64,000 bases of DNA from Roseibium sediminicola (GTDB lineage Bacteria; Pseudomonadota; Alphaproteobacteria; Rhizobiales; Stappiaceae). Made by a program: the position numbers and the translations under genes. The notes beneath the pieces were generated by a model that had not been told where the DNA came from, did not search any database, and saw only the letters and a program-made list of their open reading frames with translations. Shown here piece by piece: positions 2,653-19,611 of this stretch. The stretch covers positions 620,001 to 684,000 of the forward strand of contig NZ_JALNMJ010000001.1 of NCBI RefSeq assembly GCF_023156505.1, written 5' to 3'. The number at the start of each line of letters is the position of its first letter. The stretch's first letter is position 1.

Positions 2653-2828
2653 CATTGACCGCCGAACACCAGGGCGGCGGCGGCCTGCTTCTGAAACCTC
2701 CCGGTTCAAGCGCACGATCAATTCGTGTTGCTGACGTTTTCCCCGGTCGTTAAGTTCTGCTGGCTGGGCCATTCCACAGTTCAAGTGAAGAAGGACAGCT
2801 TGAGTAGGGCTCCTGACCCAAGGTGGTT

Positions 2829-4285: not shown

Positions 4286-5284
4286 TTAAGGCTTGCCGGC
4301 GGTTTGGGATCTCTCGATCAGGTCCACGCCCATCTGGTGGAACAGCTCAAGGTAATCCAGCAGCACCCAGTTCTCCATGATCTTGCCACCGGCGCAGCGA
4401 TAGAAATCCATCACCCGGAGCGTCAGCGGCTTGCCGGTCGCCTTGACGCCCAGATAGTCGCCCTGATGGGTCATGGTCATGGACGGCCAGCCACTGACGG
4501 CGGCAAAGTTGCCGTCGCCGATCCGGCAATAGTGATTGCCGCCGACCCGGTCTGGAAAGGCCGTCAGGAAGGCAGCGCGGTGATCCTTCTCAAAGCCGCT
4601 CCAGCGATAGTTCGAGCCGATGCCACCCGGCCCGTACCAGAGCATGTCGTCATGCCAGTAGCCGTCGTCGCCGGTCTGTCCCTTGGAGGTGAAATTTTCC
4701 GGGTCGAAGGCCTTCAGGTCGGCCAGCATGGCTTCACAGAGATCGAGCGTCTTTTCGCCATTCGCCTGGCCTTTCGGCAGGACGCCGTCATGGGTGGCCG
4801 GACCGGGAAACAGCATTTCGGTGCCGAGCATCTGGGGCAGGGGGAAGAGTCCCGCCTGCCGCATCAGGTCAAGGAGATCGAAGATGATTTTGGCTTCCGA
4901 AATCCGGCCGTCCGGCTCCACCCGGTAGAACTCTCCGGAACGAAGGAACACGAGGTGATGTGACGGCTGAATGCCGAACAGCGGTTTTTCGAAATTGCCG
5001 ACATAATGCGTGACGCTGGCAATCCAGTGACCGCCGGGCGCGCGCCGGTTGGGCCCGCCAATGAAGATCTCGTCGCGCCGGCGCACATGCGAGAAAGCGT
5101 CTTTCAGCGGCGTATAGAACCCCTCGACAACGGCGTCGCACCCTTCCAGCCGATTGACCGGAAAGGCGACATCGAACACCACGTCGTCGCGTAAGTGTTT
5201 GGAGATAAGCTCCTTATCCGCATCGGATCCGGTCGCGAAAATGCCGTTCAGGAAGGAGTGGGGAGCTTGCCGGAAGTCGGACAT
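4286..5284 (-). CDS. Two-domain SnoaL/NTF2-like protein
   Basis: The 332-residue protein appears to be two NTF2/SnoaL-like alpha+beta domains in tandem, roughly residues 10-150 and 175-325. The second half carries the family pattern of an aromatic-rich core (HDDMLWYGPGGIG) and a closing strand pair (VMDFYRCAGGKIMENWVLLD) followed by QMGVDL. Such folds serve as cyclases, isomerases, dehydratases or small-ligand binders; the reaction here is unknown. ATG 5284 (MSDFRQAP) is preferred to the upstream ATG at 5353 because that one lies beside the operator palindrome. The gene is divergent from the ABC transporter and shares its operator region. Close relatives are encoded at 10151 and 12139, so it belongs to the same catabolic locus. 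Confidence 0.7.
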   Translation of the reverse strand: MSDFRQAPHSFLNGIFATGSDADKELISKHLRDDVVFDVAFPVNRLEGCDAVVEGFYTPLKDAFSHVRRRDEIFIGGPNRRAPGGHWIASVTHYVGNFEKPLFGIQPSHHLVFLRSGEFYRVEPDGRISEAKIIFDLLDLMRQAGLFPLPQMLGTEMLFPGPATHDGVLPKGQANGEKTLDLCEAMLADLKAFDPENFTSKGQTGDDGYWHDDMLWYGPGGIGSNYRWSGFEKDHRAAFLTAFPDRVGGNHYCRIGDGNFAAVSGWPSMTMTHQGDYLGVKATGKPLTLRVMDFYRCAGGKIMENWVLLDYLELFHQMGVDLIERSQTAGKP

Positions 5285-5327
5285 GGGAGTGCCTGCCAAT
5301 ACCAAGGGTTTGTGTGCCGAAACACTA

Positions 5328-5347
5328 TTTTGCATTCGTATGCAAAA
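5328..5347. promoter_or_regulatory. Operator-like palindrome 1 (LacI type)
   Basis: The sequence TTTTGCATTCGTATGCAAAA is a 20-bp near-palindrome with perfect 8-bp arms (TTTTGCAT / ATGCAAAA). It lies between the divergent genes at 5284 and 5434. The central CG and the arms match the general style of LacI-family operators. The same core recurs at 5383 and 10738. Confidence 0.7.
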
Positions 5348-5382
5348 AATCATTGCCAAAGTCTTATCTCTGTGTCTAGCTA

Positions 5383-5402
5383 TTTTGCATAGGAATGCAA
5401 AA
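5383..5402. promoter_or_regulatory. Operator-like palindrome 2 (LacI type)
   Basis: TTTTGCATAGGAATGCAAAA repeats the 8-bp arms of the site at 5328 with a changed centre. The centres of the two sites are 55 bp apart, about five helical turns, which would suit cooperative binding or looping by a LacI-type dimer pair. It lies 32 bp before the start codon of the ATPase gene. Confidence 0.65.
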
Positions 5403-5433
5403 AATGGCCAGCGGACGATTGAGGAGGGACGCT

Positions 5434-6489
5434 GTGGCTGAAATTCAGCTCAAGAACGTGTCGAAACGGTGGGGTGGATTTGTCGGGGTCGACAATTTCG
5501 ACCTGACCATCGCCGATCGTGAATTCCTCGTCCTTCTGGGACCGTCCGGCTGCGGCAAGACCACAACCATGCGCATGATCGCAGGGCTGGAGGATGCGAC
5601 GGACGGCGAGATCGTTATCGGCGACCGCGTGGTCAACGACCTCGATCCCAAGGATCGGGACATCGCCATGGTGTTCCAGTCCTACGGCCTTTACCCGAAC
5701 ATGAATGTCTACGAGAACATCCGTTTTCCGCTGAAGGTCCGCAAGGTCGATCCCGCCAGCCATGATGAACGGGTCCTGCGCGCCGCGGACATGGTCGAAC
5801 TTCGGGAATTCCTGCACCGCAAGCCGGCGGAGCTTTCCGGCGGCCAGCGCCAGCGCGTGGCGCTCGCCCGGGCGATCGTGCGCGAGCCGAACGTCTTCCT
5901 GATGGACGAGCCGCTTTCCAACCTGGACGCCAAGCTCCGGGTTTCCACCCGTGCCCAGATCAAGAACCTGCAGCATGAACTGAAAGTCACCACAATCTAC
6001 GTCACCCATGACCAGATCGAGGCCATGACCCTGGCCGACCGCGTCGTCGTCATGAAGCGCGGCGTGATCCAGCAGGTCGGCACGCCGACCGACATCTACG
6101 ACAAGCCGGCCAACACCTTTGTTGCCGGGTTCATCGGCTCTCCGGCCATGAACCTGATGACCGGAACGCTCGCGGGCGGCACCTTCACCGGTGTAAACGT
6201 CACAATTGGCGGCCTCACTGGGCCCGACGGTCCAGTCACGCTCGGCTTCCGCGCAGAAGATGCGGCGGTTGCCCAGGCGGGCGGGGCCGCCCAGATCAGC
6301 GCGCCTGTCTACACGATGGAGCTGCTCGGTGATGCCACCATGATCACCGTCAAGGCCGGCGGGGCCCTGGTCTCCGTCAAGGCGAACAAGGATTTTCGCA
6401 TCGAGATCGACGAGACCGTCGGCCTCAGCATACCGGCAGGGATCTGCCACCTCTTTCATCACGAGACCGGGGCACGCCTCGACGTGTGA
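5434..6489 (+). CDS. ABC transporter ATP-binding protein, MalK/UgpC type
   Basis: This is the energising ATPase of a carbohydrate-type importer. It shows Walker A GPSGCGKTT at residues 36-44, the signature LSGGQRQRVALARA near residue 135, Walker B VFLMDEPLSNLDAK near 155, the switch histidine in VTHDQ near 190, and a C-terminal TOBE/MalK-like regulatory domain (MTGTLAGG onward). At 351 residues it has the usual MalK/UgpC length. GTG 5434 is chosen because GGAGGG stands 6 bases upstream and MAEIQLKNV is the common start of this family; upstream in-frame ATGs at 5395 and 5404 overlap the operator palindrome. It leads the transporter operon, with the binding protein 79 bp downstream. Confidence 0.93.
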   Translation: MAEIQLKNVSKRWGGFVGVDNFDLTIADREFLVLLGPSGCGKTTTMRMIAGLEDATDGEIVIGDRVVNDLDPKDRDIAMVFQSYGLYPNMNVYENIRFPLKVRKVDPASHDERVLRAADMVELREFLHRKPAELSGGQRQRVALARAIVREPNVFLMDEPLSNLDAKLRVSTRAQIKNLQHELKVTTIYVTHDQIEAMTLADRVVVMKRGVIQQVGTPTDIYDKPANTFVAGFIGSPAMNLMTGTLAGGTFTGVNVTIGGLTGPDGPVTLGFRAEDAAVAQAGGAAQISAPVYTMELLGDATMITVKAGGALVSVKANKDFRIEIDETVGLSIPAGICHLFHHETGARLDV

Positions 6490-6568
6490 ACCCGGTCCGA
6501 TCGGCACCAAGCCAAACAAACCAGAGCTGCGCCAGAGAGGCGCGTAGAACAGCAGGGAGACCTGACAG

Positions 6569-7774
6569 ATGTTGAAGAAACTGCTTCTTGCCAGCGCGAT
6601 GACGCTGGCGGTCACGGGCGCGGCCAGCGCCTGCGATTTTGAAAACACCACCACGATCAAGTCGCTGTCGGCGGGTTTCGAGGCCTGGAAGGCCGTCACC
6701 ACGGAAATGGCCAAGTGCGGCAATTTCGAAGCGGAGCTCGACCAGGAGTTTCGCACCAAGCAGCCGGCAGCCTTCGCGGCCGACCCTGCACTCTACCAGA
6801 TCGGCGGCGTCGCCAACGGCACGCTGGTGCCGCTCATGAACGAAGGCACGGTCCGTCCGCTTGACGACCTGGTCGAAAAATACGGTCAGAACCTGACGCC
6901 GAACCAGCTAATCAAGGTCGACGGCAAGATCATGGCGATCGCCATGATGGTCAACGCCCAGCATTTGATGTACCGGGAGGACATCCTGACCGATCTCGGC
7001 ATTCCGGTGCCCAAGACCTATGACGAGGTACTGGCGGCGGCCGCGAAGATCAAGGAGGCCGGCGTCGTCGACTATCCGATCGGCGGCACCTTCCAGACCG
7101 GCTGGAACCTTGGCGAGGAATTCGTCAACATGTATCTGGGCATGGGCGGCACGTTCTTTGCCGAGGACAACACCCCGACCATCGAGAATGCCGAGGGCAT
7201 TGCCTCGCTCGAGATGCTGAAGAAGCTGACCGAGTACATGGACCCGGAATATCTCGTGTCCGACAGCACCTATGTCCAGCAGCAGTTCCAGCAGGGCAAG
7301 ATCGCGATGGCGAACCTGTGGGCCAGCCGCGCCGGCGCGATGGACGATCCGGACGAATCCCAGGTGGTCGGCAAGGTGAAGATGGCCGGCGCACCGACAG
7401 CGAATGCACGTGCCGCGTCGACGCTCTGGTGGGATGGCATGGTCATCGCCAAGAACATCACGGACGAAGAAGCCGAAGCCGCTTTCCGGGTCGCGATGAA
7501 CGGCCTGACCCCGGAGATGGTGAAAGCCAACAATGACGCCGCTGTCTGGCTGGTGCAGGGGTATGAGCCGGGTCCCCTGGCGCAGGGCGTGGTCCAGACC
7601 GCCGAAGCCGGCGCGCTGCCTTATCCGGCGAGCTCCCAGATGGGCCTGATGCACACCGCGCTCGGCAATGGTGTTGCCGACTACCTGACCGGTGCCAAGG
7701 ACGCGGAAACGACGCTGAAGGACATCGCTGGCGCCTACACGACCTCTGCCAAGGAAGCCGGTCTGATCAAGTAA
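6569..7774 (+). CDS. Extracellular solute-binding protein, family 1
   Basis: The 401-residue protein starts with a clear Sec signal peptide (MLKKLLLASAMTLAVTGAASA, cleavage near residue 21-22) and continues as a family-1 carbohydrate-type binding protein. Features include the IDxD-like region DPALYQIGGVANGTLVPLMN near residue 75, the hinge segment YPIGGTFQTGWN near 170, and the TLWWDGMVIAKN segment near 288. It would bind the substrate in the periplasm and hand it to the permeases at 7848 and 8870. Two cysteines (residues 22 and about 50) at the start of the mature chain could form a disulfide. The ligand cannot be read from the sequence; the aromatic residues of the pocket suit a sugar or polyol, but that is inference. 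Confidence 0.9.
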   Translation: MLKKLLLASAMTLAVTGAASACDFENTTTIKSLSAGFEAWKAVTTEMAKCGNFEAELDQEFRTKQPAAFAADPALYQIGGVANGTLVPLMNEGTVRPLDDLVEKYGQNLTPNQLIKVDGKIMAIAMMVNAQHLMYREDILTDLGIPVPKTYDEVLAAAAKIKEAGVVDYPIGGTFQTGWNLGEEFVNMYLGMGGTFFAEDNTPTIENAEGIASLEMLKKLTEYMDPEYLVSDSTYVQQQFQQGKIAMANLWASRAGAMDDPDESQVVGKVKMAGAPTANARAASTLWWDGMVIAKNITDEEAEAAFRVAMNGLTPEMVKANNDAAVWLVQGYEPGPLAQGVVQTAEAGALPYPASSQMGLMHTALGNGVADYLTGAKDAETTLKDIAGAYTTSAKEAGLIK

Positions 7775-7790
7775 TCAGGCCTGGCAAAAG

Positions 7791-7812
7791 CGGAGGGCGG
7801 TCCCGCCCTCCG
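7791..7812 (+). other. Stem-loop between binding protein and permease genes
   Basis: CGGAGGGCGG and its complement CCGCCCTCCG form a near-continuous GC stem with a tiny loop, directly after the binding-protein gene and before the permease gene. There is no T tract. Such stem-loops commonly protect binding-protein mRNA from 3' decay so that it is made in excess of the permeases; that role is inferred from position. Confidence 0.55.
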
Positions 7813-7847
7813 TCCATCCACTTCAACACGCAGACCGGGAGGGGAGC

Positions 7848-8873
7848 ATGAATTCCAAGACATTCGCCGCTTTTGTCGGCCCGTCCATCTTCCTCATGCT
7901 GCTCTTCATTGCCGCGCCGCTGATCAGCGTGTTTCTGCAGAGCTTCTATCTCACCCAGCCGGTTTTCGAGACGGTTCAGGTGGAAACCTGCACGCCCGGT
8001 TTCCCGACCCAGACCTGCGTGACCGAAACAAAGACCCAGCCCATTCTGGGAGACGACGGCAAGATCGTCACCACGGTCAAATATGTCGGGCTGGAAAGCT
8101 ACCGCAATGTCCTGGAGCCCGACCGGGCCTGGGCAGCCCTGAAGGCCTTCGATATAGGCGCGCTGCTGACCATCGATTTCTGGAAGGCGCTGCGCTTTAC
8201 CCTCACCTTCACGCTGGTAACGCTTCCCCTCGTTATCGGCGTCGGGCTGGCGATCGCGATCACGGTCAACAACGCCACCCGCATGATACGTGGCCCCATC
8301 ATCTTCGTATCGCTGCTGCCCTTTATCATCACCCCGGTGATCGGCGCTCTGTCGATCCGCTGGCTGTTCATCGGCGACGGCATCATGACCGCCTTCCTGG
8401 AATGGTGGCTTGCCCGGGACATTTCGATGTTCGCCCAGGGCTGGACCATCGAGCTCCTGATGATGTTCTACCGGGTCTGGCACGTGGCACCGTTTGCCTT
8501 CGTGGTGTTCTATGCCGGCCTGCAGACGGTCAACCAGGACACGCTGGAATCCGCGATGATCGACGGGGCCAGCCGCTGGGAGCGCCTGCGCTACGTCGTC
8601 ATTCCGCACCTGATGCCGCTGATCGTCTTCATTTCTCTGATCCACCTGATGGATTCCTACCGGGTGTTCGAGGAAATCGTCGGCTTCTCCAGCCAGGCCT
8701 ACCGCATCTCGCTGCAATGGCTGACCTACGACTTCCTGACGCCCGATGACAGCGGCAACCGGTCGATCTCGCGTGCCTCGGCCAGCGCCATGCTGACCAT
8801 GATCGGCATCGTCGTCCTGCTGGTGCCGCTTCTGCGCAAGACCTGGCGCGATCACAAGGGAGGCAAGGTATGA
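7848..8873 (+). CDS. ABC transporter permease, MalF/UgpA type
   Basis: This 341-residue inner-membrane protein has an N-terminal helix (residues 7-29), a periplasmic loop rich in Thr and with two cysteines at about residues 48-62, and then five further hydrophobic segments. The permease EAA motif is visible as ESAMIDGASRWERLRYVVIPHLMPL near residue 235-260. It would form the translocation pore with the permease encoded next, which overlaps it by 4 bases (ATGA type). The GGAGGGGAGC sequence just upstream is a strong ribosome site. The cysteine-bearing periplasmic insert between helices 1 and 2 is longer than in many sugar permeases. Confidence 0.9.
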   Translation: MNSKTFAAFVGPSIFLMLLFIAAPLISVFLQSFYLTQPVFETVQVETCTPGFPTQTCVTETKTQPILGDDGKIVTTVKYVGLESYRNVLEPDRAWAALKAFDIGALLTIDFWKALRFTLTFTLVTLPLVIGVGLAIAITVNNATRMIRGPIIFVSLLPFIITPVIGALSIRWLFIGDGIMTAFLEWWLARDISMFAQGWTIELLMMFYRVWHVAPFAFVVFYAGLQTVNQDTLESAMIDGASRWERLRYVVIPHLMPLIVFISLIHLMDSYRVFEEIVGFSSQAYRISLQWLTYDFLTPDDSGNRSISRASASAMLTMIGIVVLLVPLLRKTWRDHKGGKV

Positions 8874-10027
8874 GCCTGCCGAAGTCCATGCAGCAGCCGA
8901 TGGCGCTGCGCGTCTCCTCCGCCGGCTTCCTGGCGTTCTGGTGCCTGCTCGCAAGTTTTCCGATCTTCTGGATCGCGGTGATGAGCTTCAAGGATCCGGT
9001 GGACGCGTTCGCGGCCAATCCCCTGGACGTGATCTTCGGACCGGAGACCGTTGCCACCGGACGGGGCCTGTCGATTGTCAGCATTCTCGTCGGGATGGTG
9101 GCGCTCTGGTACACGTTCCGCCTGGCGACCACGACGCTGCCGCGGCTGGTCAAGCAGTATTCGCCGCCGCACCTGATCGTGCCCGGCTGGATCATCGGCG
9201 CTCTGGTGTTTGCGCTTGGCTTCCTGATCGTCTTCGCCGGTCTGCTGCCTCCGCTTCTGGGGGCGGTCAACTCCGTGCTCGGTCCGCTCGGCAAGCCGAT
9301 CCTCGGCCTCACCACGGAACATTACAGCGCGGTCTGGTTCGAAAACGCCTTCTACGAGAACTTCATCAACTCGCTGGTCATCACGGTCGGCGTGGTGACC
9401 GTGTCGCTGACCGTCGGGACGCTGGCCGGTTATGGCCTGGCGCGCTCGGGCTCAAGCCTTGCCTTCTGGATCCTGATCATCGCGCTGATCTTCCGGGCTC
9501 TGCCGCATTCGGTGCTAGTGGCTGGCTACCTGCCGCCCTTCATCAACTCGGCGGAACTCCTGCGGCCGATCCTGGGCGACGCCGCGCCGACGCTTTACGG
9601 CCAGCCCTGGGCGGTGATCGCGGTGCTGGTGTCGATCAACCAGCCCTTCACCATCTGGATGCTGCGCTCGTTCTTCCAGAACATTCCGAATGAGCTGGAC
9701 GAAGCGGCGCGGGTCGACGGCTGCACCCATTTCCAGGCCTTTCGCTGGGTGATCATGCCGGTCATGTGGCCCGGGGTGATCACGACAGGCCTGTTCAGCT
9801 TCCTGCTGGCTTATAACGACTACCTGGTCTGTTCGCTGCTGCTCGATGCCCAGAACCAGACAATGGTTCCGGCGATTGCAGGGTATTTCAACCGGGAGAC
9901 CACGACGACGGACCAGGTGGAGGCCGTGGCGGCAGCCGTTTCCATCATTGCTCCGCTGTTCCTGCTGATCATGATTTTCCAGCGGCAGATCGTGTCCGGT
10001 CTCACCGCGGGGGCGGTGAAGGGATGA
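8870..10027 (+). CDS. ABC transporter permease, MalG type
   Basis: The 385-residue partner permease contains the conserved EAA segment NELDEAARVDGCTHFQAFRWVIMPVMWPG near residue 280-305. It has more N-terminal membrane sequence than the usual 280-residue MalG type: hydrophobic segments near residues 18-38, 63-82 and 99-130 come before the core, including a Leu/Gly-rich segment near residue 110-130. Its start codon overlaps the stop of the preceding permease gene, so translation is coupled. After it the transporter operon has a 123-bp gap before the next gene. The extra N-terminal helices are a family variant and do not look like a gene fusion error. Confidence 0.9.
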   Translation: MSLPKSMQQPMALRVSSAGFLAFWCLLASFPIFWIAVMSFKDPVDAFAANPLDVIFGPETVATGRGLSIVSILVGMVALWYTFRLATTTLPRLVKQYSPPHLIVPGWIIGALVFALGFLIVFAGLLPPLLGAVNSVLGPLGKPILGLTTEHYSAVWFENAFYENFINSLVITVGVVTVSLTVGTLAGYGLARSGSSLAFWILIIALIFRALPHSVLVAGYLPPFINSAELLRPILGDAAPTLYGQPWAVIAVLVSINQPFTIWMLRSFFQNIPNELDEAARVDGCTHFQAFRWVIMPVMWPGVITTGLFSFLLAYNDYLVCSLLLDAQNQTMVPAIAGYFNRETTTTDQVEAVAAAVSIIAPLFLLIMIFQRQIVSGLTAGAVKG

Positions 10028-10150
10028 CGATCTATCTGGTCACACCATTCCCGATCCGGCATCCGGCGCGCAACCGGCTCCCACGTGATCTTCCGGCTCA
10101 ACCGTGCCTGCTGCCCACCGGAACACAGACACGATCGATGGAGAATTGAG

Positions 10151-10687
10151 ATGAAGGGATCCCGTCCCGAACAGGCGGTGCTGAGCCGCGACACGGACAT
10201 GAGCAAGACCGGAGAGACCCGCCGCGTGATCGAAGGTATGGTCGACGGGCTGAACGACCACCGCATTGCCGATATCGGCGAGTTCTTTTCCGATGGCTTT
10301 CGATGGCTGGGCAATTGCGGCTGCGGCACCAAGACCGGCCTGAAGGAATTCCAGGACAATTGGCAAAAACCGTTTCAGGCCGCCTTTTCCGACAAGGTCT
10401 GCGTCGACGAGGCAAGGCTTTACATGGGCGAGTGGGCGGCCGCCTTCGGCCGCCAGGAGGCCACCCATTCCGGTCCTTTCATGGGTGTCGCCGCAACCGG
10501 CAAGCGGGTCGAGATCCGCTACATGGATTTCTGGAAAGTGGTGGACGGCAAGATCGTCGACAACTGGGTGATGGTCGACTTTCCGCATGTGCTTGCCCAG
10601 CTCGGCAAGGACGTCTTCAACGGCGAAGGTTGGGAAGCCTATGACCGTGGTGAGCGGCAACCGTCGGCGCCGGAGCAGGCTGCGTAA
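10151..10687 (+). CDS. Single-domain SnoaL/NTF2-like protein
   Basis: The 178-residue protein is one NTF2/SnoaL-like domain with an N-terminal extension. The C-terminal pattern RYMDFWKVVDGKIVDNWVMVD followed by QLGKDVF closely matches the second halves of the proteins at 4286 and 12139, so the three are relatives. The middle has a cysteine pair in LGNCGCGTK (about residues 55-60) that the relatives lack. ATG 10151 is used because GGAG stands 8 bases upstream. The fold suggests a small cyclase, isomerase or dehydratase acting on the transported substrate or a product of it. It lies between the transporter and the dehydrogenase operon, upstream of operator palindrome 3. Confidence 0.75.
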   Translation: MKGSRPEQAVLSRDTDMSKTGETRRVIEGMVDGLNDHRIADIGEFFSDGFRWLGNCGCGTKTGLKEFQDNWQKPFQAAFSDKVCVDEARLYMGEWAAAFGRQEATHSGPFMGVAATGKRVEIRYMDFWKVVDGKIVDNWVMVDFPHVLAQLGKDVFNGEGWEAYDRGERQPSAPEQAA

Positions 10688-10737
10688 CGCGGAACCTTGC
10701 GGCTTCGGGCATTTCTTCGAAGCCGCTTGATTTATCG

Positions 10738-10751
10738 TGCATACGTATGCA
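10738..10751. promoter_or_regulatory. Operator-like palindrome 3 (LacI type)
   Basis: TGCATACGTATGCA is a perfect 14-bp palindrome that shares the TGCAT-N4-ATGCA core with the sites at 5328 and 5383. It lies 75 bp before the start of the dehydrogenase gene at 10826, so the long downstream operon probably has its own LacI-controlled promoter here. Confidence 0.7.
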
Positions 10752-10825
10752 AATTGAAAATGACAGCGGCTGGAACACGGGGTCCCAAAGAAGCCCTCCG
10801 GTCCGCGCCTCGAAAGGGAAGAAAC

Positions 10826-12136: not shown

Positions 12137-12138
12137 CC

Positions 12139-13188
12139 ATGGACCGGCATACCCACCACAAGGCGCTGATTGCTCCGCTGCGGGCGGCGATGTACGACTT
12201 CGAGGAAGGCACCGTGCGAAAGGCGCTGTCCGATGTCTGCGCGTCGGATGTCCTTTTCCGTCTGTGCCACCCGTTTGGCGACACCACCGGCACGGACGCC
12301 TTTTACGACAAGGCCTATGCACCGCTCTTCAAGGCAATTCCGGATCTGGAGCGCCGCGACACCATCGTCATGGCCGGCCCGACCCCGGAAGGCAACGACT
12401 GGGTCGGCTGCGGCGGCTATTACACCGGCTCCTTCGAAACGCCGTGGCTCGACATTCCCGCGACCGGTCACCAGGTCGCCATGCGCTTTCACGAGTTCTA
12501 CCGCTTTGTCGACGGCAAGGTGGTCGAATTCCAGGCGCTGTGGGACATTCCGGAAGTGATGATGCAGGCGAAGGCCTGGCCGATGGCGCCGAGCCTTGGC
12601 CGCGAGTGGCATGTACCGGGCCCGGCGACCGAGGACGGCATCGTGCCGGGGCCCTATGACGACGAGGCAGGCAGACGGACCTGCCAGCACATCATCGACA
12701 TGCTGGAGCATCTGAAGAAACACCCGTCCCAGGGCGGGCCGGAAGTAATGGAAATGCCGAGGTTCTGGCATCCGCGCATGAGCTGGTACGGCCCTTCGGG
12801 CATCGGCACTGGCCGCGGCATCAAGGGTTTCCGCAACTGGCACCAGATCCCGTTTCTGAACGGCATGCCCGACCGGGGCCAATATGTCGACGAGATCGAG
12901 TACCACTTTTTCGGCGACCGCGACTATGCCGCAGTCACCGGCTGGCCGAACATGATCCAGACTGTCAGCCATGACGGCTGGATGGGCATTGCTCCCTCGG
13001 GCAGGAAGATCACCATGCGCAGCCTGGATTTCTGGCGAGTGGAGAACGGCTTGATCCGGGAAAACTGGGTTTTGGTCGATCTTCTGGACGCTTACGAGCA
13101 ATTGGGTGTTGACGTCTTTCATCGGCTTCGGGAATTCAACAAGGCCCGCTGTGGCTTTGATCCAGAAACCGGAGTTGCCTTGTCATGA
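12139..13188 (+). CDS. Two-domain SnoaL/NTF2-like protein
   Basis: This 349-residue protein repeats the tandem NTF2/SnoaL-like plan of the protein at 4286. The first domain (about residues 5-160) ends with MRFHEFYRFVDGKVVEFQALWDIPE, and the second (about 185-330) ends with SLDFWRVENGLIRENWVLVDLLD followed by QLGVDVF. A linker with WHVPGPATEDGIVPGP resembles the LFPGPATHDGVLP linker of the 4286 protein, so the two are paralogues. The start follows the dehydrogenase stop by 2 bases. The function is unknown; a role as isomerase or dehydratase in the pathway is inferred from fold and context. Confidence 0.75.
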   Translation: MDRHTHHKALIAPLRAAMYDFEEGTVRKALSDVCASDVLFRLCHPFGDTTGTDAFYDKAYAPLFKAIPDLERRDTIVMAGPTPEGNDWVGCGGYYTGSFETPWLDIPATGHQVAMRFHEFYRFVDGKVVEFQALWDIPEVMMQAKAWPMAPSLGREWHVPGPATEDGIVPGPYDDEAGRRTCQHIIDMLEHLKKHPSQGGPEVMEMPRFWHPRMSWYGPSGIGTGRGIKGFRNWHQIPFLNGMPDRGQYVDEIEYHFFGDRDYAAVTGWPNMIQTVSHDGWMGIAPSGRKITMRSLDFWRVENGLIRENWVLVDLLDAYEQLGVDVFHRLREFNKARCGFDPETGVALS

Positions 13189-13952
13189 TCGATCTTCCCT
13201 CCACCCCGAGCTTTTCTCTTGCCGGCAAACGCGTTCTTGTTGCCGGCGCCTCCTCCGGCATCGGCCTGGGTTGTGCCACCGCCCTTGCTGAGGCCGGCGG
13301 CGACGTTGTGCTGGCGGCGCGGCGGGAAGACAGACTGAAAGACGCGGTCGACGCCATGACGGCAAGGGGGTGGAAAGCTTCCGCGCTGCAGCTCGACATT
13401 GCAGATGTCCTGGAAGTCGAAGTCAGTGTCGAAAAAAACGGACCGTTCGACGTCCTGGTCAACAGCGCCGGCTTTGCCCTGCACACGCCGGCGACCGAGA
13501 CCACCCCGGAGGATTTCGACCGCGTCATGAACGTCAATCTGCGTGGCGCCTATTTCGTGACCCGGGCGGTCGCCAAAGGCCTGATTGAAGCGGGCAGGCC
13601 TGGTTCCCTGATCAACATGTCCTCGCAGATGGCCCATGTCGGCGGCATCGACCGCGCGGTCTATTGCGCTTCCAAATTCGCCGTCGAAGGCTTCACCAAG
13701 GCAATGGCGCTGGAATTCGGTCCCAAACAGATCCGCGTCAACACGATCTGCCCGACCTTCATCCGCACGCCGCTCACCGAACCGACCTTTGACAATCCCG
13801 ACCGCGTCAAGTGGATCGAGGAGAAAATCAAGCTCGGCCGGACGGGCGAGGTCCAGGACATCATGGGCGCAGTGCTTTATCTCGCCAGCGACGCCTCGTC
13901 CCTGGTGACGGGAACATCGCTGCTTGTCGACGGAGGCTGGACGGCTGACTGA
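13185..13952 (+). CDS. Short-chain dehydrogenase/reductase (SDR)
   Basis: This is a classical SDR of 255 residues. The cofactor loop GASSGIG lies at residues 21-27, NSAG at 93-96, and the catalytic set at S146/S147, Y160 and K164 (YCASK). The end of the first Rossmann half has AARRED, so the arginines after the second strand may favour NADP(H). It should oxidise or reduce a hydroxyl/keto group of the transported compound. The start codon overlaps the previous stop (ATGA), and the next gene, the LacI regulator, overlaps its stop in turn, so the genes are translationally coupled. Confidence 0.9.
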   Translation: MIDLPSTPSFSLAGKRVLVAGASSGIGLGCATALAEAGGDVVLAARREDRLKDAVDAMTARGWKASALQLDIADVLEVEVSVEKNGPFDVLVNSAGFALHTPATETTPEDFDRVMNVNLRGAYFVTRAVAKGLIEAGRPGSLINMSSQMAHVGGIDRAVYCASKFAVEGFTKAMALEFGPKQIRVNTICPTFIRTPLTEPTFDNPDRVKWIEEKIKLGRTGEVQDIMGAVLYLASDASSLVTGTSLLVDGGWTAD

Positions 13953-14983
13953 TGGCAAACGAGAAAGTCACCTCCATCGAAGTTGCCAAGAAGGCCGGCG
14001 TCAGCCAGTCGGCGGTCAGCCGCGTGTTCACGCCTGGCGCCTCCGTCTCGCCGAAAATGGCCGAGAAAGTGCTGAAGGCCGCCGAGGAGCTTGGTTACCG
14101 GCCGAACGTCCTGGCGCGTTCGCTGATCACCGGCCGCTCGCGCATCATCGGCCTGGTGGTGGCTTATCTGGACAACCAGTTCTATCCGGACGCGCTGGAA
14201 AAGCTCTCCAATGCGCTCCAGGCCCACGGCTATCACATCCTCGTCTTCATGGTTTCGAACGACGACGACGGCATCGACAAGGTGATGGGCGAACTCCTGG
14301 ATTATCAGGTCGACGGCATCATCACCGCCTCTGTCGCCATGTCCAACGCGCTGACCTCGCGCTGCGCGGCGGCCGGCGTGCCGGTGGTGCTGTTCAACCG
14401 TGGCCAGGACGACGTCCGTCTCAACCAGGTGACCTCGGACAATTTCGAGGGCGGGCGCAAGATCGCCGCCTTCCTGGCCGCCGGTGGCCACAAGAAAATC
14501 GCCCACATTGCCGGCTGGTCAGGCTCGTCCACCGGGCGCGACCGCGAGGCTGGGTTCCGGGCAGGCCTGAGAGAGGTCGGTCTCGAGCTCTCTGTCTGTA
14601 TCGATGGCATGTACAAGCGGGATATCGCGGCCCAGGCGGCGCGGGACATCTTTTCGGCCAAGGATCGCCCCGACGCGGTGTTTGTCGGCAACGATCACAT
14701 GGCCTTTGCCGTGATGGACGTGCTGCGCTTCGAACTGAAACTCGACGTGCCCGGCGATGTGTCCGTCGTCGGCTATGACGACGTGCCGCTGGCCGCCTGG
14801 CCGGCCTATGACCTCACAACCCTGCGCCAACCCTCCAACCGCATGGTCGAGGCGACCGTCTCAACGTTGCTCGGCTGGATCGAGGAAGGCAGCCAGGATG
14901 TTCAGAAAATCAAGATCGACGGACCGCTGATGATCCGCGGTTCCGCACGCTTACCCGAAGGATGGCCCGATGAAAGGCTTTGA
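13952..14983 (+). CDS. LacI-family transcriptional regulator of the catabolic locus
   Basis: The 343-residue protein has a LacI-type helix-turn-helix at about residues 6-27 (TSIEVAKKAGVSQSAVSRVF), a hinge with LARSLITGRSRIIGLVV, and an effector domain (NDHMAFAVMDVLR near 250, VVGYDDVPLAAWPAY near 270). Sitting in the middle of the operon and overlapping both neighbours (1 base with the SDR gene, 14 bases with the next gene), it is the best candidate for binding the palindromes at 5328, 5383 and 10738. It would then be autoregulated from the last of these. The inducer is presumably the transported compound or an intermediate. Confidence 0.9.
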   Translation: MANEKVTSIEVAKKAGVSQSAVSRVFTPGASVSPKMAEKVLKAAEELGYRPNVLARSLITGRSRIIGLVVAYLDNQFYPDALEKLSNALQAHGYHILVFMVSNDDDGIDKVMGELLDYQVDGIITASVAMSNALTSRCAAAGVPVVLFNRGQDDVRLNQVTSDNFEGGRKIAAFLAAGGHKKIAHIAGWSGSSTGRDREAGFRAGLREVGLELSVCIDGMYKRDIAAQAARDIFSAKDRPDAVFVGNDHMAFAVMDVLRFELKLDVPGDVSVVGYDDVPLAAWPAYDLTTLRQPSNRMVEATVSTLLGWIEEGSQDVQKIKIDGPLMIRGSARLPEGWPDERL

Positions 14984-15938
14984 CCCGCGCTGGTCCGATT
15001 TCCCCGATTACATCATCGGGATCACCAAGGAGATCTGGGAAGACCGCAAGATCGCGACCCTGCACCATTATTATTCCGATGACATCGTCGTACGCTCGCC
15101 CGCCTCCGTCGTGGTCGGCAACAAGGACGTCATCGGCGCGACCATGGCGACCCTGGCCGAATTCCCGGACCGGACGCTGCTGGGGGAAGACGTCATCTGG
15201 TCGGGCACGCCGGAGGAGGGCATGCTCTCCTCCCACCGGATCATTTCCACCGCCACCCATCTCGGCGACGGTGTCTATGGCAAGGCGACGGGCAAGAAGC
15301 TGCAATACCGGATCATCGCCGACTGCCATGCCATCAACAACCAGATCAACGACGAATGGCTGATCCGCGACCAGGGCGCGATCGTGCGCCAGATGGGCTG
15401 GGATCCGGCCGCCTATGCGCGGGATCTGATTGAGCGCCAGGGAGGGCCGGAGGATTGCGTCCGGCCGTTCACGTCGGCCATCGACCAGCCCGGTCCCTAC
15501 AAGGGCAAGGGCAACGACAATGAATGGGGCGCCAGATACGCCGACATTCTCGGCCGCATCATGGGCGCCGACATGGCCGCCATCGAGACCGAATACGACC
15601 GCGCCTGCCAGCTCGCCTATCCGGGCGGCGTCAACGGTTATTCCTGGGGCGATGCCGACCGGTTCTGGATGGGCCTGCGCGCCAGCTTTCCTTCGGCCAC
15701 CTTCCGGATCGAACACCAGATCGGTCGCGACGATCCCCTGATGCCGCCGCGTGCGGCCCTGCGCTGGTCGTTGCACGGCAAGCATGACGGCTGGGGTGCC
15801 TTCGGCGAGCCAACGGGAGCCGAGGTCTATGTGATGGGCGCGGCCCACGCCGAATTCGGCCCCTGGGGCTTGCGCCGCGAATACGTGCTTTTCGATGAAA
15901 CGTCGATCTGGAAGCAGATCGCACTCAAAACCGGCTGA
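14970..15938 (+). CDS. Two-domain SnoaL/NTF2-like protein, divergent
   Basis: The 322-residue protein seems to hold two NTF2/SnoaL-like domains, about residues 10-150 and 185-320. The first has the pattern YYSDDIVVRSP followed by a helical segment and NNQINDEWLIRDQGAIVRQMG, typical of the ester cyclase/SnoaL style. The second has FPSATFRIEHQIG and ends LRREYVLFDETSIWKQI. It is much less similar to the other three NTF2-like proteins of the locus than those are to each other. Its start lies inside the end of the LacI gene. Enzymatic activity is unknown. Confidence 0.65.
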   Translation: MKGFDPRWSDFPDYIIGITKEIWEDRKIATLHHYYSDDIVVRSPASVVVGNKDVIGATMATLAEFPDRTLLGEDVIWSGTPEEGMLSSHRIISTATHLGDGVYGKATGKKLQYRIIADCHAINNQINDEWLIRDQGAIVRQMGWDPAAYARDLIERQGGPEDCVRPFTSAIDQPGPYKGKGNDNEWGARYADILGRIMGADMAAIETEYDRACQLAYPGGVNGYSWGDADRFWMGLRASFPSATFRIEHQIGRDDPLMPPRAALRWSLHGKHDGWGAFGEPTGAEVYVMGAAHAEFGPWGLRREYVLFDETSIWKQIALKTG

Positions 15939-15969
15939 TCGCCAGCCCAACCCCTCAATAGGTCCTGTC

Positions 15970-16935
15970 ATGAGCCCTGAAGAGATGGAAACCCGGATTG
16001 TCCGCTATGGCGATCTGAAACCCTGCCGCACCGCCTTTATCGATGCCCACACGCCGGGCTCGGACCAGAAGGAGAATTTCACCATCATCGGCGGTGGTGT
16101 GTCCGAAAGCCCGGACCAGCATGTCCATATCAAGGAAACGCCGGGCTTCAACATCGGCGCGGCCGGCCAGCCGCCGAAATGCCGCAACTCGTTGCATTCG
16201 CATACCACTGCCGAAGTGTTCTTCGTGCTGAAGGGCCGCTGGCGGTTCTTCTGGGGACGCTGGGGCACCGCCGGAGAAGTGGTGCTGGAAGAAGGCGACA
16301 TCTTCAACATTCCGACCGGCATCTTCCGGGGCTTTGAAAACATCGGCACCGACTACGGCATGATCATGGCGATCCTTGGCGGCGATGATGCCGGCGGCGG
16401 CGTCACCTGGGCGCCCCAGGTGATCGAGGATGCCAGGGATCACGGCCTGGTCCTCGGCGAGAACGGCGTGCTCTATGACAGCAAGAAGGGCCAGTCGCTT
16501 CCCGAAGGTGTCAAGCCGATGCCTCTCCTGAGCGATGACGAGTTGAAAGCCTTCCCGGAGCCCGGCAACGAGGCTGTGGTCCGCGATTACGTTGCGCGCT
16601 ACTGGGACATGATGGCGCTCGCCGCGAAAAGACCCTGCAAGGTCATCGGCGAAACGGCGCTCCTGAAGGACAAGCCTGGCTTCGAAGTGGAGTTCCTGAC
16701 CCGCGGCTCGATCCCGGAAACGGCCTATACGCTCCAGGCTCACGAGATCCTGATGGTCATGCGCGGCCACTGGAAGCTTTCCTGGGCGGATGGCGAAAAG
16801 GTGCTGGCACCGGGCGATACCTGCGCCGTGCCGCCGGGTCTCGAACACAGCCTTGCCCCGTCAATGAGTGGTGAAGCCAGCCTCTTCCGCGCGATGAACA
16901 CGGCGGATCCGGCCGGACCGACCTGGGTCAGCTGA
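15970..16935 (+). CDS. Bicupin protein
   Basis: The 321-residue protein carries two cupin barrels. The first shows SLHSHTTAEVFFVLKGR at residues 74-90 with likely metal ligands H76, H78 and E82, and a later GDIFNIPTGIFRGFEN segment. The second, about residues 220-320, has EILMVMRGHWKLSW and PGDTCAVPPGLEHSL. The second barrel lacks a clear HxH motif, so perhaps only the first binds metal. Bicupins of this kind include dioxygenases and isomerases of ring or sugar compounds. The preceding gene ends 31 bp upstream. The start chosen is ATG 15970, after the neighbouring stop; the frame also runs back into that gene. Confidence 0.8.
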   Translation: MSPEEMETRIVRYGDLKPCRTAFIDAHTPGSDQKENFTIIGGGVSESPDQHVHIKETPGFNIGAAGQPPKCRNSLHSHTTAEVFFVLKGRWRFFWGRWGTAGEVVLEEGDIFNIPTGIFRGFENIGTDYGMIMAILGGDDAGGGVTWAPQVIEDARDHGLVLGENGVLYDSKKGQSLPEGVKPMPLLSDDELKAFPEPGNEAVVRDYVARYWDMMALAAKRPCKVIGETALLKDKPGFEVEFLTRGSIPETAYTLQAHEILMVMRGHWKLSWADGEKVLAPGDTCAVPPGLEHSLAPSMSGEASLFRAMNTADPAGPTWVS

Positions 16936-16954
16936 AACAACAAGGGAGGCCCCC

Positions 16955-18088
16955 ATGAGCACGCTTGAGGTTACCCATGTCGGCTCGCTGCCGCGCACGC
17001 AAAAGGTCGTCGATTTCATTTTTGCCCGCGAGAACGGCACGCCCTATGAGGAGGCGGACTTCGACGCAGCGATGACGGAGGCGGTTTCGCAGACCGTGCG
17101 CAAACAGGTCGATGCCGGCGTTTCCATCGTCAGCGACGGCGAGACCTCGAAGATCTCCTATGCCACCTATGTGAAGGACCGCTATACCGGCTTTTCCGGC
17201 GACAGCCCGCGCAACGCGCCGGCCGATCTGAAGCTCTATCCGAGCTTTCTGAAGCGGATCGCCGAAAGCGGCGGCACGCCGAAATACGCAAGGCCCATGT
17301 GCACCGGCGAGGTCCGGTCTAAAGGGCAGGGGGAGCTGGAGAAAGACATCGCCAACCTGAAAGCGGCGATGGCCGAACACGGCGCTGGCCGCGGCTTCAT
17401 GAATGCGGCCTCGCCGGGCGTGATCTCGCTGTTCCTGCAGAATGACTTCTACCCCACAAGGGACGCCTACCTGGCGGCGCTCGCCGACGTGATGAAGGCG
17501 GAATACGAGACCATTGTAGCCTCCGGCCTCGATCTTCAGCTTGACTGTCCGGACCTGGCGCTGTCCCGGCACATGCTGTTCACGGATTTGTCCGACGAGG
17601 AATTCGTCAAGGTAGCGGCCAGCCACGTCGAGGCGCTCAACCATGCGCTCTCCGATATCGATCCGGCAAGGGTGCGCATTCACATCTGCTGGGGCAACTA
17701 TGAAGGCCCTCATGTCTGTGACATCTCCATGGACAAAGTGTTTTCCACGCTGATGTCCGCCCGGGCCAATTATGTGTTGTTCGAAACCTCTAATCCGCGC
17801 CACGCCCATGAATGGACGGTCTTCCGCGACCGCAAGGCGGAGATCCCGGAGGACAAGATCCTGGTGCCCGGTGTCGTCGACACGACCACCAACTTCGTCG
17901 AGCATCCGGAAGCGGTGGCGCAGCGTCTGGAACGCTTCACCGGCATTGTCGGCAAGGACCGCGTCATCGCTGGGTCCGATTGCGGCTTCGGCACCTTTGC
18001 CGGCTTCGGCGCGGTCGATCCGGAAATCGCCTATGCCAAGCTGGCCGCGCTTGCTGAAGGCGCGTCCATCGCAGGCGCGCGCGCGTGA
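16955..18088 (+). CDS. MetE-like cobalamin-independent methionine synthase II family protein
   Basis: The 377-residue protein has the length of the stand-alone C-terminal half of MetE. It shows the family start EVTHVGSLPRT and keeps the zinc ligand pattern H-x-C ... C (H243, C245 in RIHICWGN and C343 in AGSDCGFGTF). Relatives in this family activate thiols on zinc and transfer alkyl groups (methionine synthase, epoxyalkane:coenzyme M transferase). It is not accompanied by methionine genes. In this operon it more likely handles a thiol conjugate or an alkylated substrate, which is inference. GGAGG lies just before the ATG, and the next gene overlaps its stop (GTGA). Confidence 0.85.
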   Translation: MSTLEVTHVGSLPRTQKVVDFIFARENGTPYEEADFDAAMTEAVSQTVRKQVDAGVSIVSDGETSKISYATYVKDRYTGFSGDSPRNAPADLKLYPSFLKRIAESGGTPKYARPMCTGEVRSKGQGELEKDIANLKAAMAEHGAGRGFMNAASPGVISLFLQNDFYPTRDAYLAALADVMKAEYETIVASGLDLQLDCPDLALSRHMLFTDLSDEEFVKVAASHVEALNHALSDIDPARVRIHICWGNYEGPHVCDISMDKVFSTLMSARANYVLFETSNPRHAHEWTVFRDRKAEIPEDKILVPGVVDTTTNFVEHPEAVAQRLERFTGIVGKDRVIAGSDCGFGTFAGFGAVDPEIAYAKLAALAEGASIAGARA

Positions 18089-18777
18089 CGCCGCTCGTAC
18101 TCTTGCCGGGCATGATGTGCGACGCGCGGCTTTACGGGCCACAGATTGCCGCCCTGTCCGGCCGGGTGCCGCTCCACCTGGCGCCGATTAAGGACCGGCA
18201 AAGCGTTGAAGAGCTGGCGGTGGACATTCTGGAAACCGCACCGCCGCGCTTTGCCCTGGCTGGCCTGTCCATGGGGGGCATCGTCGCGATGGAAGTGATT
18301 CGCCAAGCACCGGAACGCATCGACCGATTGGCATTGCTCGACACCAATCCAAGAGCCGAGCTTGAGGAGGTCAGGCAGCGGCGTGAGCCGCAGATCGAAG
18401 CGGTCCGCAATGGCCGCTTGAAAGACATCATGCGCGACGAGCTGAAGCCGAATTATCTGGCAGAAGGGCCGCGCCGCCAGGACGTGCTGGATCTCTGCAT
18501 GGCGATGGCGCTCGATCTCGGCCCGGACGTCTTTGAACGCCAGTCTCGCGCCCTTCAGACCCGACCGGACCAGCAGGAAACGCTGAAACAGGTGCGTTGC
18601 CCAACGCTCATTCTCATGGGGGCCGACGACCGGCTCTGTCCGCGCGACCGGCACGAACTGATGCATGCGCTCATTGCCGGCTCGACCCTTCAAATCATCG
18701 ACGGTGCCGGTCACCTGCCCACGCTGGAACAGCCCAATGCCGTCACCGCTGCCCTCAAGACCTGGCTGGACCTGTGA
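18085..18777 (+). CDS. Alpha/beta hydrolase
   Basis: The 230-residue protein has the alpha/beta hydrolase pattern: LLPGMMCDARLY near residues 6-16 (oxyanion-hole region), the nucleophile elbow GLSMGG with S62, an aspartate in MGADDRLCPRD near 175, and the general-base histidine in GAGHLPTLEQP near 210. It lacks a signal peptide and should be cytoplasmic. It starts with GTG overlapping the previous stop and is overlapped by the RraA-like gene, so it is part of the coupled operon. Likely substrates are an ester or lactone intermediate; this is inferred only from the fold. Confidence 0.85.
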   Translation: MTPLVLLPGMMCDARLYGPQIAALSGRVPLHLAPIKDRQSVEELAVDILETAPPRFALAGLSMGGIVAMEVIRQAPERIDRLALLDTNPRAELEEVRQRREPQIEAVRNGRLKDIMRDELKPNYLAEGPRRQDVLDLCMAMALDLGPDVFERQSRALQTRPDQQETLKQVRCPTLILMGADDRLCPRDRHELMHALIAGSTLQIIDGAGHLPTLEQPNAVTAALKTWLDL

Positions 18778-19472
18778 TGGACACTGACCTTCTGGACCTT
18801 CTGAAAACCGTCGACACGCCGACCGTCTGCAACGCCATTGAGGTGGCCGAAGGCCGGCGCGGTTTCAACCGCTTCACACGGGGCACCATGCTCTCGTCCG
18901 ATCCGGATGGCGGCGCCATGGTCGGTTATGCCCGAACGGCCAAGATCTCGGCCCTGGCCCCATCGACCGAGGCCCCGGAGGTGATCAAGGCACGGCGCAT
19001 GGACTATTACCGCTACATGTCCGAAGGCCCGCGTCCGGCGATCACCGTGGTCGAGGATGTCGACTTCCCGAACGCGATCGGCGCCTATTGGGGCGAGATC
19101 AACACCACGGTTCACAAGGGACTGGGTGTTTCCGGCGCGCTCACCAACGGCGTCATGCGCGATCTTGGCGATCTGCCTGACGGCTTTCCGGTCGTCGCCG
19201 GCTCCGTCGGCCCGAGCCACGGCTATGTACATGTGAAAGAGATCGGCACGCCGGTGAAGATCTTCGGCCTCGACATTCTCGCCGGCGAACTGATTCATGC
19301 GGACCGGCACGGGGCCCTCGTGATCCCGGAAACCGTCATCCCGGTCCTGGCCGGTGCGATCCGCAAGCTTCTGGAGACCGAGCAGATTGTGCTCGGGCCT
19401 GCAAGAGAGCCGGACTTCTCCTTCGAAAAATTCGAGGCAGCGTGGGCCGCGTTTGAAAAGGCCAGAACATAA
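18777..19472 (+). CDS. RraA-family protein (HMG/CHA aldolase-like)
   Basis: The 231-residue protein belongs to the RraA family, which includes 4-hydroxy-4-methyl-2-oxoglutarate/4-carboxy-4-hydroxy-2-oxoadipate aldolases and oxaloacetate decarboxylases. Visible markers are TPTVCNAIE near residue 14, the GVSGALTNGVMRDLGDL segment near 120 with the conserved Arg-Asp pair, and HADRHGALVIPE near 180. The RraA regulator itself is shorter (about 160 residues) and differs in context. It is the last gene of the coupled run, so a terminal retro-aldol cleavage or decarboxylation giving pyruvate-like products is a reasonable inference. Confidence 0.85.
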   Translation: MDTDLLDLLKTVDTPTVCNAIEVAEGRRGFNRFTRGTMLSSDPDGGAMVGYARTAKISALAPSTEAPEVIKARRMDYYRYMSEGPRPAITVVEDVDFPNAIGAYWGEINTTVHKGLGVSGALTNGVMRDLGDLPDGFPVVAGSVGPSHGYVHVKEIGTPVKIFGLDILAGELIHADRHGALVIPETVIPVLAGAIRKLLETEQIVLGPAREPDFSFEKFEAAWAAFEKART

Positions 19473-19611
19473 GCCTGCCTTGAAGGCGATAGCGAGGTCT
19501 CGAATGCGGTGGAACGGGTTTACCACACGGTAAGTCGATGTTTGCGCAACGTCACTTCGGGCGCTAGCCTGAATGGAACGCCTGTTTCCATAACCTGCAA
19601 AGGACCGTCCG

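Follow-up and report, generated by a model that had tools for sequence, protein, structure and literature searches.

What does the gene cluster at positions 4286–19472 of a 64,000-nt stretch of the Roseibium sediminicola genome take up and break down? The stretch (hereafter the window, in whose numbering all positions are given) covers 620,001–684,000 of the forward strand of contig NZ_JALNMJ010000001.1 (assembly GCF_023156505.1), in a host genome of 6.35 Mb. An earlier sequence-only reading described here a catabolic locus with no obvious characterised counterpart, directed at a polyhydroxylated or sulfur-bearing compound. Family scans confirm the complete ABC importer and every gene family named in that reading: the locus encodes a CUT1-type importer, a HisD-family (HpsN-like) dehydrogenase, a short-chain dehydrogenase (SDR), four SnoaL-type proteins, a bicupin, a MetE-like protein of the Meth_synt_2 family, an alpha/beta hydrolase and an RraA-like protein. 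They also add one gene to the list, that of a LacI regulator inside the operon. We conclude that the cluster is a genuine catabolic regulon, which is widespread, seems not to have been described before and is not sulfonate-specific. The claim that it has no characterised counterpart holds as far as the open-licence literature was searched, since none of the papers listed is, by title or abstract, on the gene set; subscription papers and preprints lie outside this scope, so this negative is weak.

We tentatively suggest that the LacI-controlled regulon imports an alicyclic, polyhydroxylated, usually methoxylated compound and turns it into central metabolites, the core of this compound being the 4-deoxygadusol of mycosporines and mycosporine-like amino acids (MAAs); we consider this possible, at less than an even chance. 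It is rather doubtful that the cluster serves the complete breakdown of mycosporines, MAAs or gadusol by the HpsN-like enzyme, the bicupin, an esterase or a new MetE-like O-demethylase, and the RraA aldolase. The mechanism class is moderately supported, and mycosporines are the most specific substrate candidate, by chemical argument.

The gene set is conserved as a unit. With the MetE-like protein as query, at least 576 relatives were confirmed in bacterial and archaeal genomes. The best 80 of them, which were kept, are alphaproteobacteria by their record titles (Roseibium, Ruegeria and further Rhodobacteraceae, SAR116, some few Rhizobiaceae and one member of the Rhodospirillales), and most of these genera are known from the sea. 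We compared 100 loci, 20 and 80 from two scans, counting a gene as present when it is more than 40% identical to that of the window. The counts are 100 for metE, 91 for snD, 87 for bicup, 82 each for lacI and sdr, 79 for hpsN, 77 for snC, 74 for abh, 73 for perm2, 67 for rraA, 66 each for perm1 and snB, 54 for sbp, 30 for abcA and 6 for snA. Two of the loci (L033 and L053) lie on the same contig and three (L050–L052) are distant MetE relatives outside any such cluster; most named loci span just 10 kb upstream, hence the counts of importer genes are lower bounds. Gene order is largely preserved. The closest named relatives at the locus belong to Roseibium, with hpsN, lacI and bicup 85–95% identical in R. 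album (L054) and R. denhamense (L058).

The same picture emerges from 292 evenly sampled Rhodobacterales genomes. At the chosen E-value limits (1e-140, 1e-165 and 1e-60), on which the presence calls depend, metE-like genes occur in 121 genomes, hpsN-like genes in 144 and the bicupin in 132. All three markers are found together in 116 genomes and none of them in 145; hpsN and bicupin alone form 13 pairs, metE and bicupin 3, and metE and hpsN 2, while hpsN stands alone in 13 genomes and metE or bicupin alone in 0. Fisher tests of co-occurrence on these 292 genomes ignore relatedness. Rare joint occurrence of the genes, which would have refuted the sequence-only reading, is not what we observe. 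Split copies exist: the bicupin of G477 and G707 and the metE of G860 are widely separated from hpsN or placed on a different contig. Within the order to which the window belongs, a match to the MetE-like protein at E <= 1e-40 is found in just 26 of 297 genomes, for several of which it is a distant relative only, and 3 of the 5 listed genomes of its own genus give no match at this limit. This sparse occurrence fits horizontal spread of the cluster, and plasmid copies are found. One of them lies on the 98.6-kb plasmid pMaD9 of Marinovum algicola DG 898 (L144), beside genes of dimethylsulfoniopropionate demethylation (dmdA and companions). Another, in Octadecabacter arcticus (L174), has IS6 transposase genes nearby. 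One cluster copy comes from an isolate with the coral Galaxea fascicularis as its stated source; we count this origin and the dmdA neighbours in favour of the mycosporine reading.

The layout and a shared palindrome tie the importer to the enzymes. All genes lie on the forward strand with the exception of snA (4286–5284, minus strand; its reading frame is open from 5359, with ATG at 5284 the likely start), which is divergent from the importer. The latter comprises abcA, a UgpC/MalK-type ATPase (5434–6489; frame open from 5395, GTG the likely start; NF008653, 443.8 bits at a cut-off of 432), the family-1 solute-binding protein sbp (6569–7774) and the permeases perm1 (7848–8873) and perm2 (8870–10027, best match MalG), the genes of which overlap. 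Then follow snB (10199–10687) and an unbroken run of nine genes, hpsN, snC, sdr, lacI, snD, bicup, metE, abh and rraA, with overlaps or gaps of at most 31 bp. The tight coupling claimed earlier therefore stands for this run, 9 of 14 junctions in the locus being overlapping or at most 31 bp. It does not extend to the four junctions abcA–sbp, sbp–perm1, perm2–snB and snB–hpsN, which are 73–171 bp long, nor to the divergent snA. The SDR gene occupies 13185–13952 and the LacI gene 13952–14983.

Within the window, TGCATNNNNATGCA is matched 3 times where shuffles give 0.09, and each match falls in one of the two control regions of the locus. Two of these near-perfect palindromes, TTTTGCATTCGTATGCAAAA (5328–5347) and TTTTGCATAGGAATGCAAAA (5383–5402), lie between snA and the importer, and the third, TGCATACGTATGCA (10738–10751), upstream of hpsN. 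The shared operator-like sites suggest that the importer and the hpsN operon form one regulon, and the LacI protein would be the one to bind them. Across 80 named loci the pattern is found 6 times where 0.6 would be expected; five of these sites directly precede hpsN in Roseibium/Labrenzia (L053, L054, L057, L058 and L072), and the sixth lies upstream of abcA in Yoonia (L131). A point against is that the other 74 of the 80 have no exact match, so TGCATNNNNATGCA is not a general motif. Together, the recurring gene set and the palindrome at both control regions bear out the earlier idea of one pathway.

The HpsN-like protein (10826–12136) bears directly on the question of sulfonates. Its closest solved relatives are dehydrogenases of 2,3-dihydroxypropane-1-sulfonate (DHPS, or sulfopropanediol; E 6.4e-117). 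In an alignment to 8v35 and across 80 rows, chosen at >=60% identity to the window protein, the Zn/NAD catalytic residues of the HisD fold (Gln, His, Glu-His, Asp-Lys and the C-terminal His) are kept, as are the segments GQAEH, ASEH, GDK and NH and the C-terminal His described for CpHpsN. These features favour catabolism of a DHPS-like sulfonate by an HpsN homologue. However, the available text on HpsN gives GRY[A/S]H as its sulfonate-recognising motif, the His of which contacts the sulfonate, and GSAPL as the corresponding motif of HisD (PMC11382572). GRY[A/S]H is absent from the aligned rows; GKFPM stands at its place in 79 of 80 and GKYPM in 1 of 80, with the sulfonate-recognising His thus replaced. 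A sulfo-lyase is also missing from the genes of the locus, beyond which no search for one was made in the genome. Hence, we regard a sulfonate substrate as very improbable and reject the sulfopropanediol route on the residue motif, in line with the sequence-only reading. GSAPL is likewise absent from the 80 rows. This motif is not universal in the family, since the one further HisD-family match in the genome (E <= 1e-30, 39% identical, on another contig) has GLASYP at the site. With the catalytic residues kept and GRY[A/S]H absent, the HpsN-like protein most likely, as judged from its residues, oxidises an alcohol to an acid on a non-sulfonated substrate. This points to a further class of HisD-fold alcohol-to-acid dehydrogenases beside HisD and HpsN.

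We propose the following order of steps for the mycosporine substrate. The ABC importer would take up the compound, and the SnoaL-type proteins together with the SDR would open or isomerise its side groups; for mycosporines, hydrolysis of the enaminone or imine would free the amino acids. The HpsN-like NAD/Zn enzyme would then oxidise a CH2OH beside a tertiary carbinol to COOH, turning the C5 hydroxymethyl of 4-deoxygadusol into a tertiary hydroxy acid. The cupin with O2 may cleave the ring at the methoxy-enolone, giving a (mono)methyl ester, and the alpha/beta hydrolase may cleave this ester to 4-carboxy-4-hydroxy-2-oxoadipate (CHA, C7H8O8), from which the RraA-type aldolase would release pyruvate and oxaloacetate. 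The MetE-like zinc protein would be an optional alternative, which removes the O-methyl group before or beside the ring cleavage. Starting from the core structure of 4-deoxygadusol, the atom balance to CHA closes exactly, both with and without prior demethylation. Mycosporines are described as having a cyclohexenone or imine ring with a methoxyl substituent and amino-acid side groups (PMC3083659, as far as available). Ring cleavage to a methyl ester, followed by hydrolysis and aldol cleavage, would account for the place of abh and rraA at the end of the operon and for the dispensable nature of metE. The earlier logic of uptake and breakdown of a polyhydroxylated compound through an alcohol-to-acid dehydrogenase and a retro-aldolase is supported.

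Three proteins should carry the ring cleavage and what follows. Cupin dioxygenases of the quercetinase/acireductone type have HxH(x3-4)E in motif 1 and a fourth ligand His in motif 2. In the bicupin (15970–16935; residues numbered from the codon at 15967) the first of these, H77-x-H79-x3-E83, is invariant in 35 rows; the second cupin is degenerate. Its AlphaFold model has a mean predicted local distance difference test score (pLDDT) of 82.5, with the conserved stretch 20–60 poorly modelled, and the first six Foldseek matches are quercetin, 3-hydroxyanthranilate and salicylate dioxygenases. By the model, a dioxygenase is plausible. The alpha/beta hydrolase (18085–18777), with PcaDC/PcaD and then BioH as top NCBIfam matches, has the blocks GLSMGG, G..D and AGH conserved in 74 rows, which we take to be its Ser-Asp-His triad. 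In the RraA-like protein (18777–19472), both residues of R128-D129 are kept by at least 97% of the 68 aligned rows. They correspond to the Arg-Asp pair of the aldolase of 4-hydroxy-4-methyl-2-oxoglutarate (HMG) and CHA, given as Arg-123/Asp-124 for Pseudomonas putida F1 in the available text (PMC5065237). Over a local alignment of 109 columns the protein is 31% identical to the LigK of Croceicoccus.

The MetE-like protein (16955–18088) is a single-domain protein of 377 residues and lacks the two-domain architecture of MetE. Its residues H243, C245, E277 and C343, which we take to be the His, Cys, Glu and Cys zinc ligands of MetE, are invariant in 27 rows. Its best NCBIfam score of 86.4 bits compares with a cut-off of 406, and it stays below every curated cut-off. 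The model (pLDDT 89.8) forms one barrel, with chain B of 3rpd as the best Foldseek match (TM 0.74/0.81, 19% identity). The gene is an optional insert, because 13 genomes have hpsN and the bicupin without a metE-like gene. A search for the MetE-like protein at E <= 1e-15 was empty in 13 of 13, which speaks against a distant paralogue at this limit; an empty result carries weight only together with a positive control, and the same query matched 121 sister genomes. Stop codons appeared inside some MetE-like matches; in G598, the match that was checked, the protein's natural C-terminal stop comes first and the match runs past it. The zinc/thiol chemistry of this protein was the sole pointer to a sulfur-bearing substrate, and with 13 of the 132 bicupin-positive genomes having hpsN and lacking metE we do not retain that part of the earlier claim.

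We opened 12 of the 13 metE-less genomes, leaving out G742. In 10 of the 12 (L151–L160), bicup, abh and rraA follow each other without an intervening gene, as expected if ring cleavage gives a methyl ester for the hydrolase. The smallest clusters (L153, L155 and L156) keep hpsN, sdr, bicup, abh and rraA, have lost snB, snC and any close snD, and thereby define the common chemistry. In L155 and L156 a distant snD-like gene (29–30%) is kept beside the transporter, and in L153 a tripartite ATP-independent periplasmic (TRAP) permease lies upstream.

Methyl-group chemistry of the MetE-like protein is suggested by three sphingomonad contexts. In 3 of 6 annotated records examined for distant relatives, the MetE-like protein is 50–54% identical to that of the window, and its gene adjoins an NTF2-family gene and lies in or near one-carbon (C1) genes of methoxyaromatic metabolism. 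In Novosphingobium US6-1, the NTF2 gene follows the MetE-like one, with aminomethyltransferase, MetF, PurU, LigAB and FolD genes within ~8 kb; in Sphingobium RAC03, it follows likewise and the C1 genes are 6–11 kb away past an IS21 element; in Croceicoccus, the pair adjoins the C1 genes, and ligK, oxalomesaconate tautomerase and LigAB genes are nearby. The aminomethyltransferase is presumably of LigM type. Sphingomonad plasmids (L142, L143 and L149) carry the MetE-like and NTF2-family genes as a triad with an IclR regulator. The NTF2 partner was considered as a close homologue of snA–snD and rejected, with no significant pairwise phmmer or BLAST match; in Croceicoccus it also matches SnoaL_2. 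Whatever its substrate, the gene set points to a MetE-like subfamily tied to catabolism, rather than to methionine synthesis. In the plasmids of Rhodococcus NJ-530 (L145) and Dietzia DQ12-45-1b (L146), a MetE-like gene stands beside genes for a 2-oxoglutarate/iron oxygenase, a YaaH transporter and a member of the phytanoyl-CoA-dioxygenase family, the last of which adjoins an HD-domain gene; the arrangement is reminiscent of phosphonate oxidation of the PhnY/PhnZ type.

The methoxyaromatic neighbours, and the ring-cleaving dioxygenases among the top structural matches of the bicupin, would also suit another methylated or aromatic-like compound, such as an algal O-methylated phenol or a phlorotannin fragment, which the cupin would cleave on the way to the aldolase. 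However, the cluster genes of the window include neither a hydroxylase or Rieske oxygenase nor a demethylase of the aminomethyltransferase type, the importer and the LacI regulator are of sugar type, and the HpsN-like step should need a CH2OH beside a heteroatom-bearing carbon, as judged from the substrates of HisD and HpsN. We consider such a substrate improbable.

The four SnoaL-type proteins differ in domain number. snA, snC and snD have ~320–350 residues with SnoaL-type models matched in both halves: snA (PF07366 E 5.6e-23) and snC (12139–13188, E 7e-26) are two-domain proteins with two matched stretches each, and snD (14970–15938) is probably one, with PF07366 matched at 19–141 (E 3e-13) and SnoaL_2, more weakly, at 228–296. 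snB is a single-domain protein (PF07366 E 5.4e-20). It matches the SnoaL/DnrD model NF033407, from which a polyketide-like biosynthetic cluster might be read; its 41.6 bits are far under the cut-off of 200, and snA, snC and snD give no match to this model at E <= 1e-3. A full importer with its binding protein, a LacI regulator and an aldolase-type gene are present and no synthase is found among the genes scanned, so we reject polyketide biosynthesis as extremely unlikely.

Several observations weigh against the mycosporine pathway. The C–N hydrolysis by SnoaL proteins is a guess, for which we know of no precedent. The fourth cupin His is missing in the bicupin, where R121 is invariant in 35 rows, and another His could serve; its model reaches TM-scores below 0.5 with the solved structures listed, among which MncA, oxalate decarboxylases and vicilins also appear. 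The RraA-like protein scores just 20.7 bits with the LigK/PcmE model TIGR02798 (cut-off 304.5). Of the 100 loci, just 67 have rraA and just 74 abh, and of the metE-less genomes L161 has abh and no rraA after bicup and L162 has neither. The MetE-like relatives in the other 3 of 6 records (Rhodococcus, Dietzia and Halobaculum) have other neighbours.

The remaining points of this kind suit a sugar-acid route, our main rival explanation. A polyol, O-methyl sugar or uronate-like compound would be imported, oxidised by the SDR at a secondary OH and by the HpsN-like enzyme at a terminal CH2OH, and dehydrated or isomerised by SnoaL proteins and the cupin to a keto-deoxy acid, on which the RraA protein would act by cleavage or decarboxylation. 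The CUT1 importer and the LacI regulator are of sugar type, and the solved structures matched by the binding protein (best 5iai, a sugar ABC transporter protein) are mostly named as sugar or polyol binders; this route accounts for importer type and regulator at least as well as the mycosporine reading. A precedent for the last step is FlDet, an RraA-family protein described in the available text as a keto-deoxy-hexarate dehydratase/decarboxylase (PMC8563752). Gene neighbourhoods add an aldehyde dehydrogenase after rraA in L153, nearest to ketoglutarate-semialdehyde dehydrogenases and below the cut-off, a GH1 beta-glucosidase-like gene in L094 and, in G573, a glucosylglycerate-hydrolase-like gene upstream of hpsN–sdr. 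However, the sugar-acid route alone leaves the alpha/beta hydrolase and the methyl-linked MetE-like gene unexplained, no sugar kinase, kduI-like or kdgA-like match is found among the cluster genes of the window, and the modelled bicupin resembles dioxygenases at the fold level. We take this route to be somewhat unlikely, and go on with the mycosporine reading as our tentative choice.

Accessory genes vary between the loci. By BLAST groups, with the family assigned from one scanned representative of each, a class I S-adenosylmethionine (SAM) methyltransferase recurs in 20 loci, a choline-dehydrogenase-like GMC oxidoreductase in 9 and a glutathione S-transferase in 3; the GH1 glucosidase, an M19 peptidase, an M20 amidohydrolase and an amidase are found in few. 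We infer that these genes adapt the pathway to the side chains of a group of related substrates. A second HpsN-like paralogue, 43–48% identical, lies near the cluster in L045, L047, L067, L075, L155 and L156, with the motif GR[YF]PL in the four that were read. The amidase stands beside it in L067 and L155 (scanned) and in L047 and L075 (by BLAST group), and the two perhaps belong to a sister pathway for a related compound that bears an amide. In the bicupin-less L104 and L119 a replacement bicupin was sought and rejected, with no bicupin-profile match and 16–19% identity in forced alignment. In L123 (an uncultured Ruegeria), second SnoaL genes, a binding protein, permeases and a divergent LacI gene follow the main cluster at ~12940–20509, and SnoaL-plus-CUT1 modules may be a wider theme.

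Around the cluster, an AmpH-like serine hydrolase gene directly downstream of rraA (19612–20709; NF007943, 272.1 bits, cut-off 266) is probably unrelated to it. The segment 21594–24252 encodes 5-aminolevulinate synthase on the minus strand, a Crp/Fnr regulator that resembles FtrB but scores below the cut-off, and a 187-residue protein with no NCBIfam match. The GC content is 0.495 at 2001–4000 and 0.511 at 62001–64000, against 0.57–0.66 in the other 2-kb blocks, and these two blocks are possibly foreign DNA.

Occurring in 40–49% of the sampled Rhodobacterales genomes (116 of 292 by three markers, 144 of 292 by hpsN-like genes), the set is presumably directed at a compound that is common. Among the papers listed in searches of the open-licence literature, none has by title or abstract a gene cluster for the breakdown of mycosporines as its subject, a weak absence with subscription papers and preprints outside. 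If mycosporines are the substrate, then roughly 40–49% of the sampled Rhodobacterales species could recycle the ocean's sunscreen compounds, and if it is their core, these genes would be markers for what becomes of the natural UV screens that are widespread among algae and corals.

The nearest known system by chemistry is the genetically studied syringate pathway of Pseudomonas sp. NGC7, with the genes vanA1B1, mgaAB, mgaC, mgaD and galDBC (PMC12314914; this and the following statements hold for its available text). There, opening of the methoxylated ring produces a methyl ester, mutant data implicate the alpha/beta hydrolase MgaC in the hydrolysis of this ester, the SnoaL/NTF2 protein MgaD is a predicted tautomerase, and the CHA aldolase GalC acts last. 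The proposed order of chemistry is the same in our cluster, from ring cleavage through the ester, the hydrolase and a SnoaL/NTF2 protein to the CHA aldolase, with likeness at the superfamily level only. Unlike the cupin proposed here, the NGC7 ring dioxygenase is LigAB-like; NGC7 also has the O-demethylase VanA1B1, its account names neither an HpsN-like dehydrogenase nor an ABC importer, and in the window cluster an alcohol-to-acid dehydrogenase would take the place of the hydratase. With DHPS catabolism (hpsN, hpsO and hpsP), as far as described in the available texts (PMC11131964, PMC11382572), the locus shares a HisD-fold dehydrogenase, an SDR and a transporter in Rhodobacterales, whereas it lacks the sulfonate motif and a sulfo-lyase and has bicupin, MetE-like, SnoaL and RraA genes instead. 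The RraA-like protein has the family and the Arg-Asp pair in common with the HMG/CHA aldolases LigK, GalC and PcmE, but lies far below the curated cut-off. With the sphingomonads US6-1, RAC03 and Croceicoccus the cluster shares a MetE-like gene next to an NTF2-family one; in contrast, the partner there is not significantly matched to snA–snD, and the neighbours are aminomethyltransferase, MetF, PurU and FolD genes. The MetE-like protein itself has the catalytic barrel and the zinc ligands of MetE and of single-barrel MetE-like proteins, but it is a single-domain, optional member of a catabolic operon.

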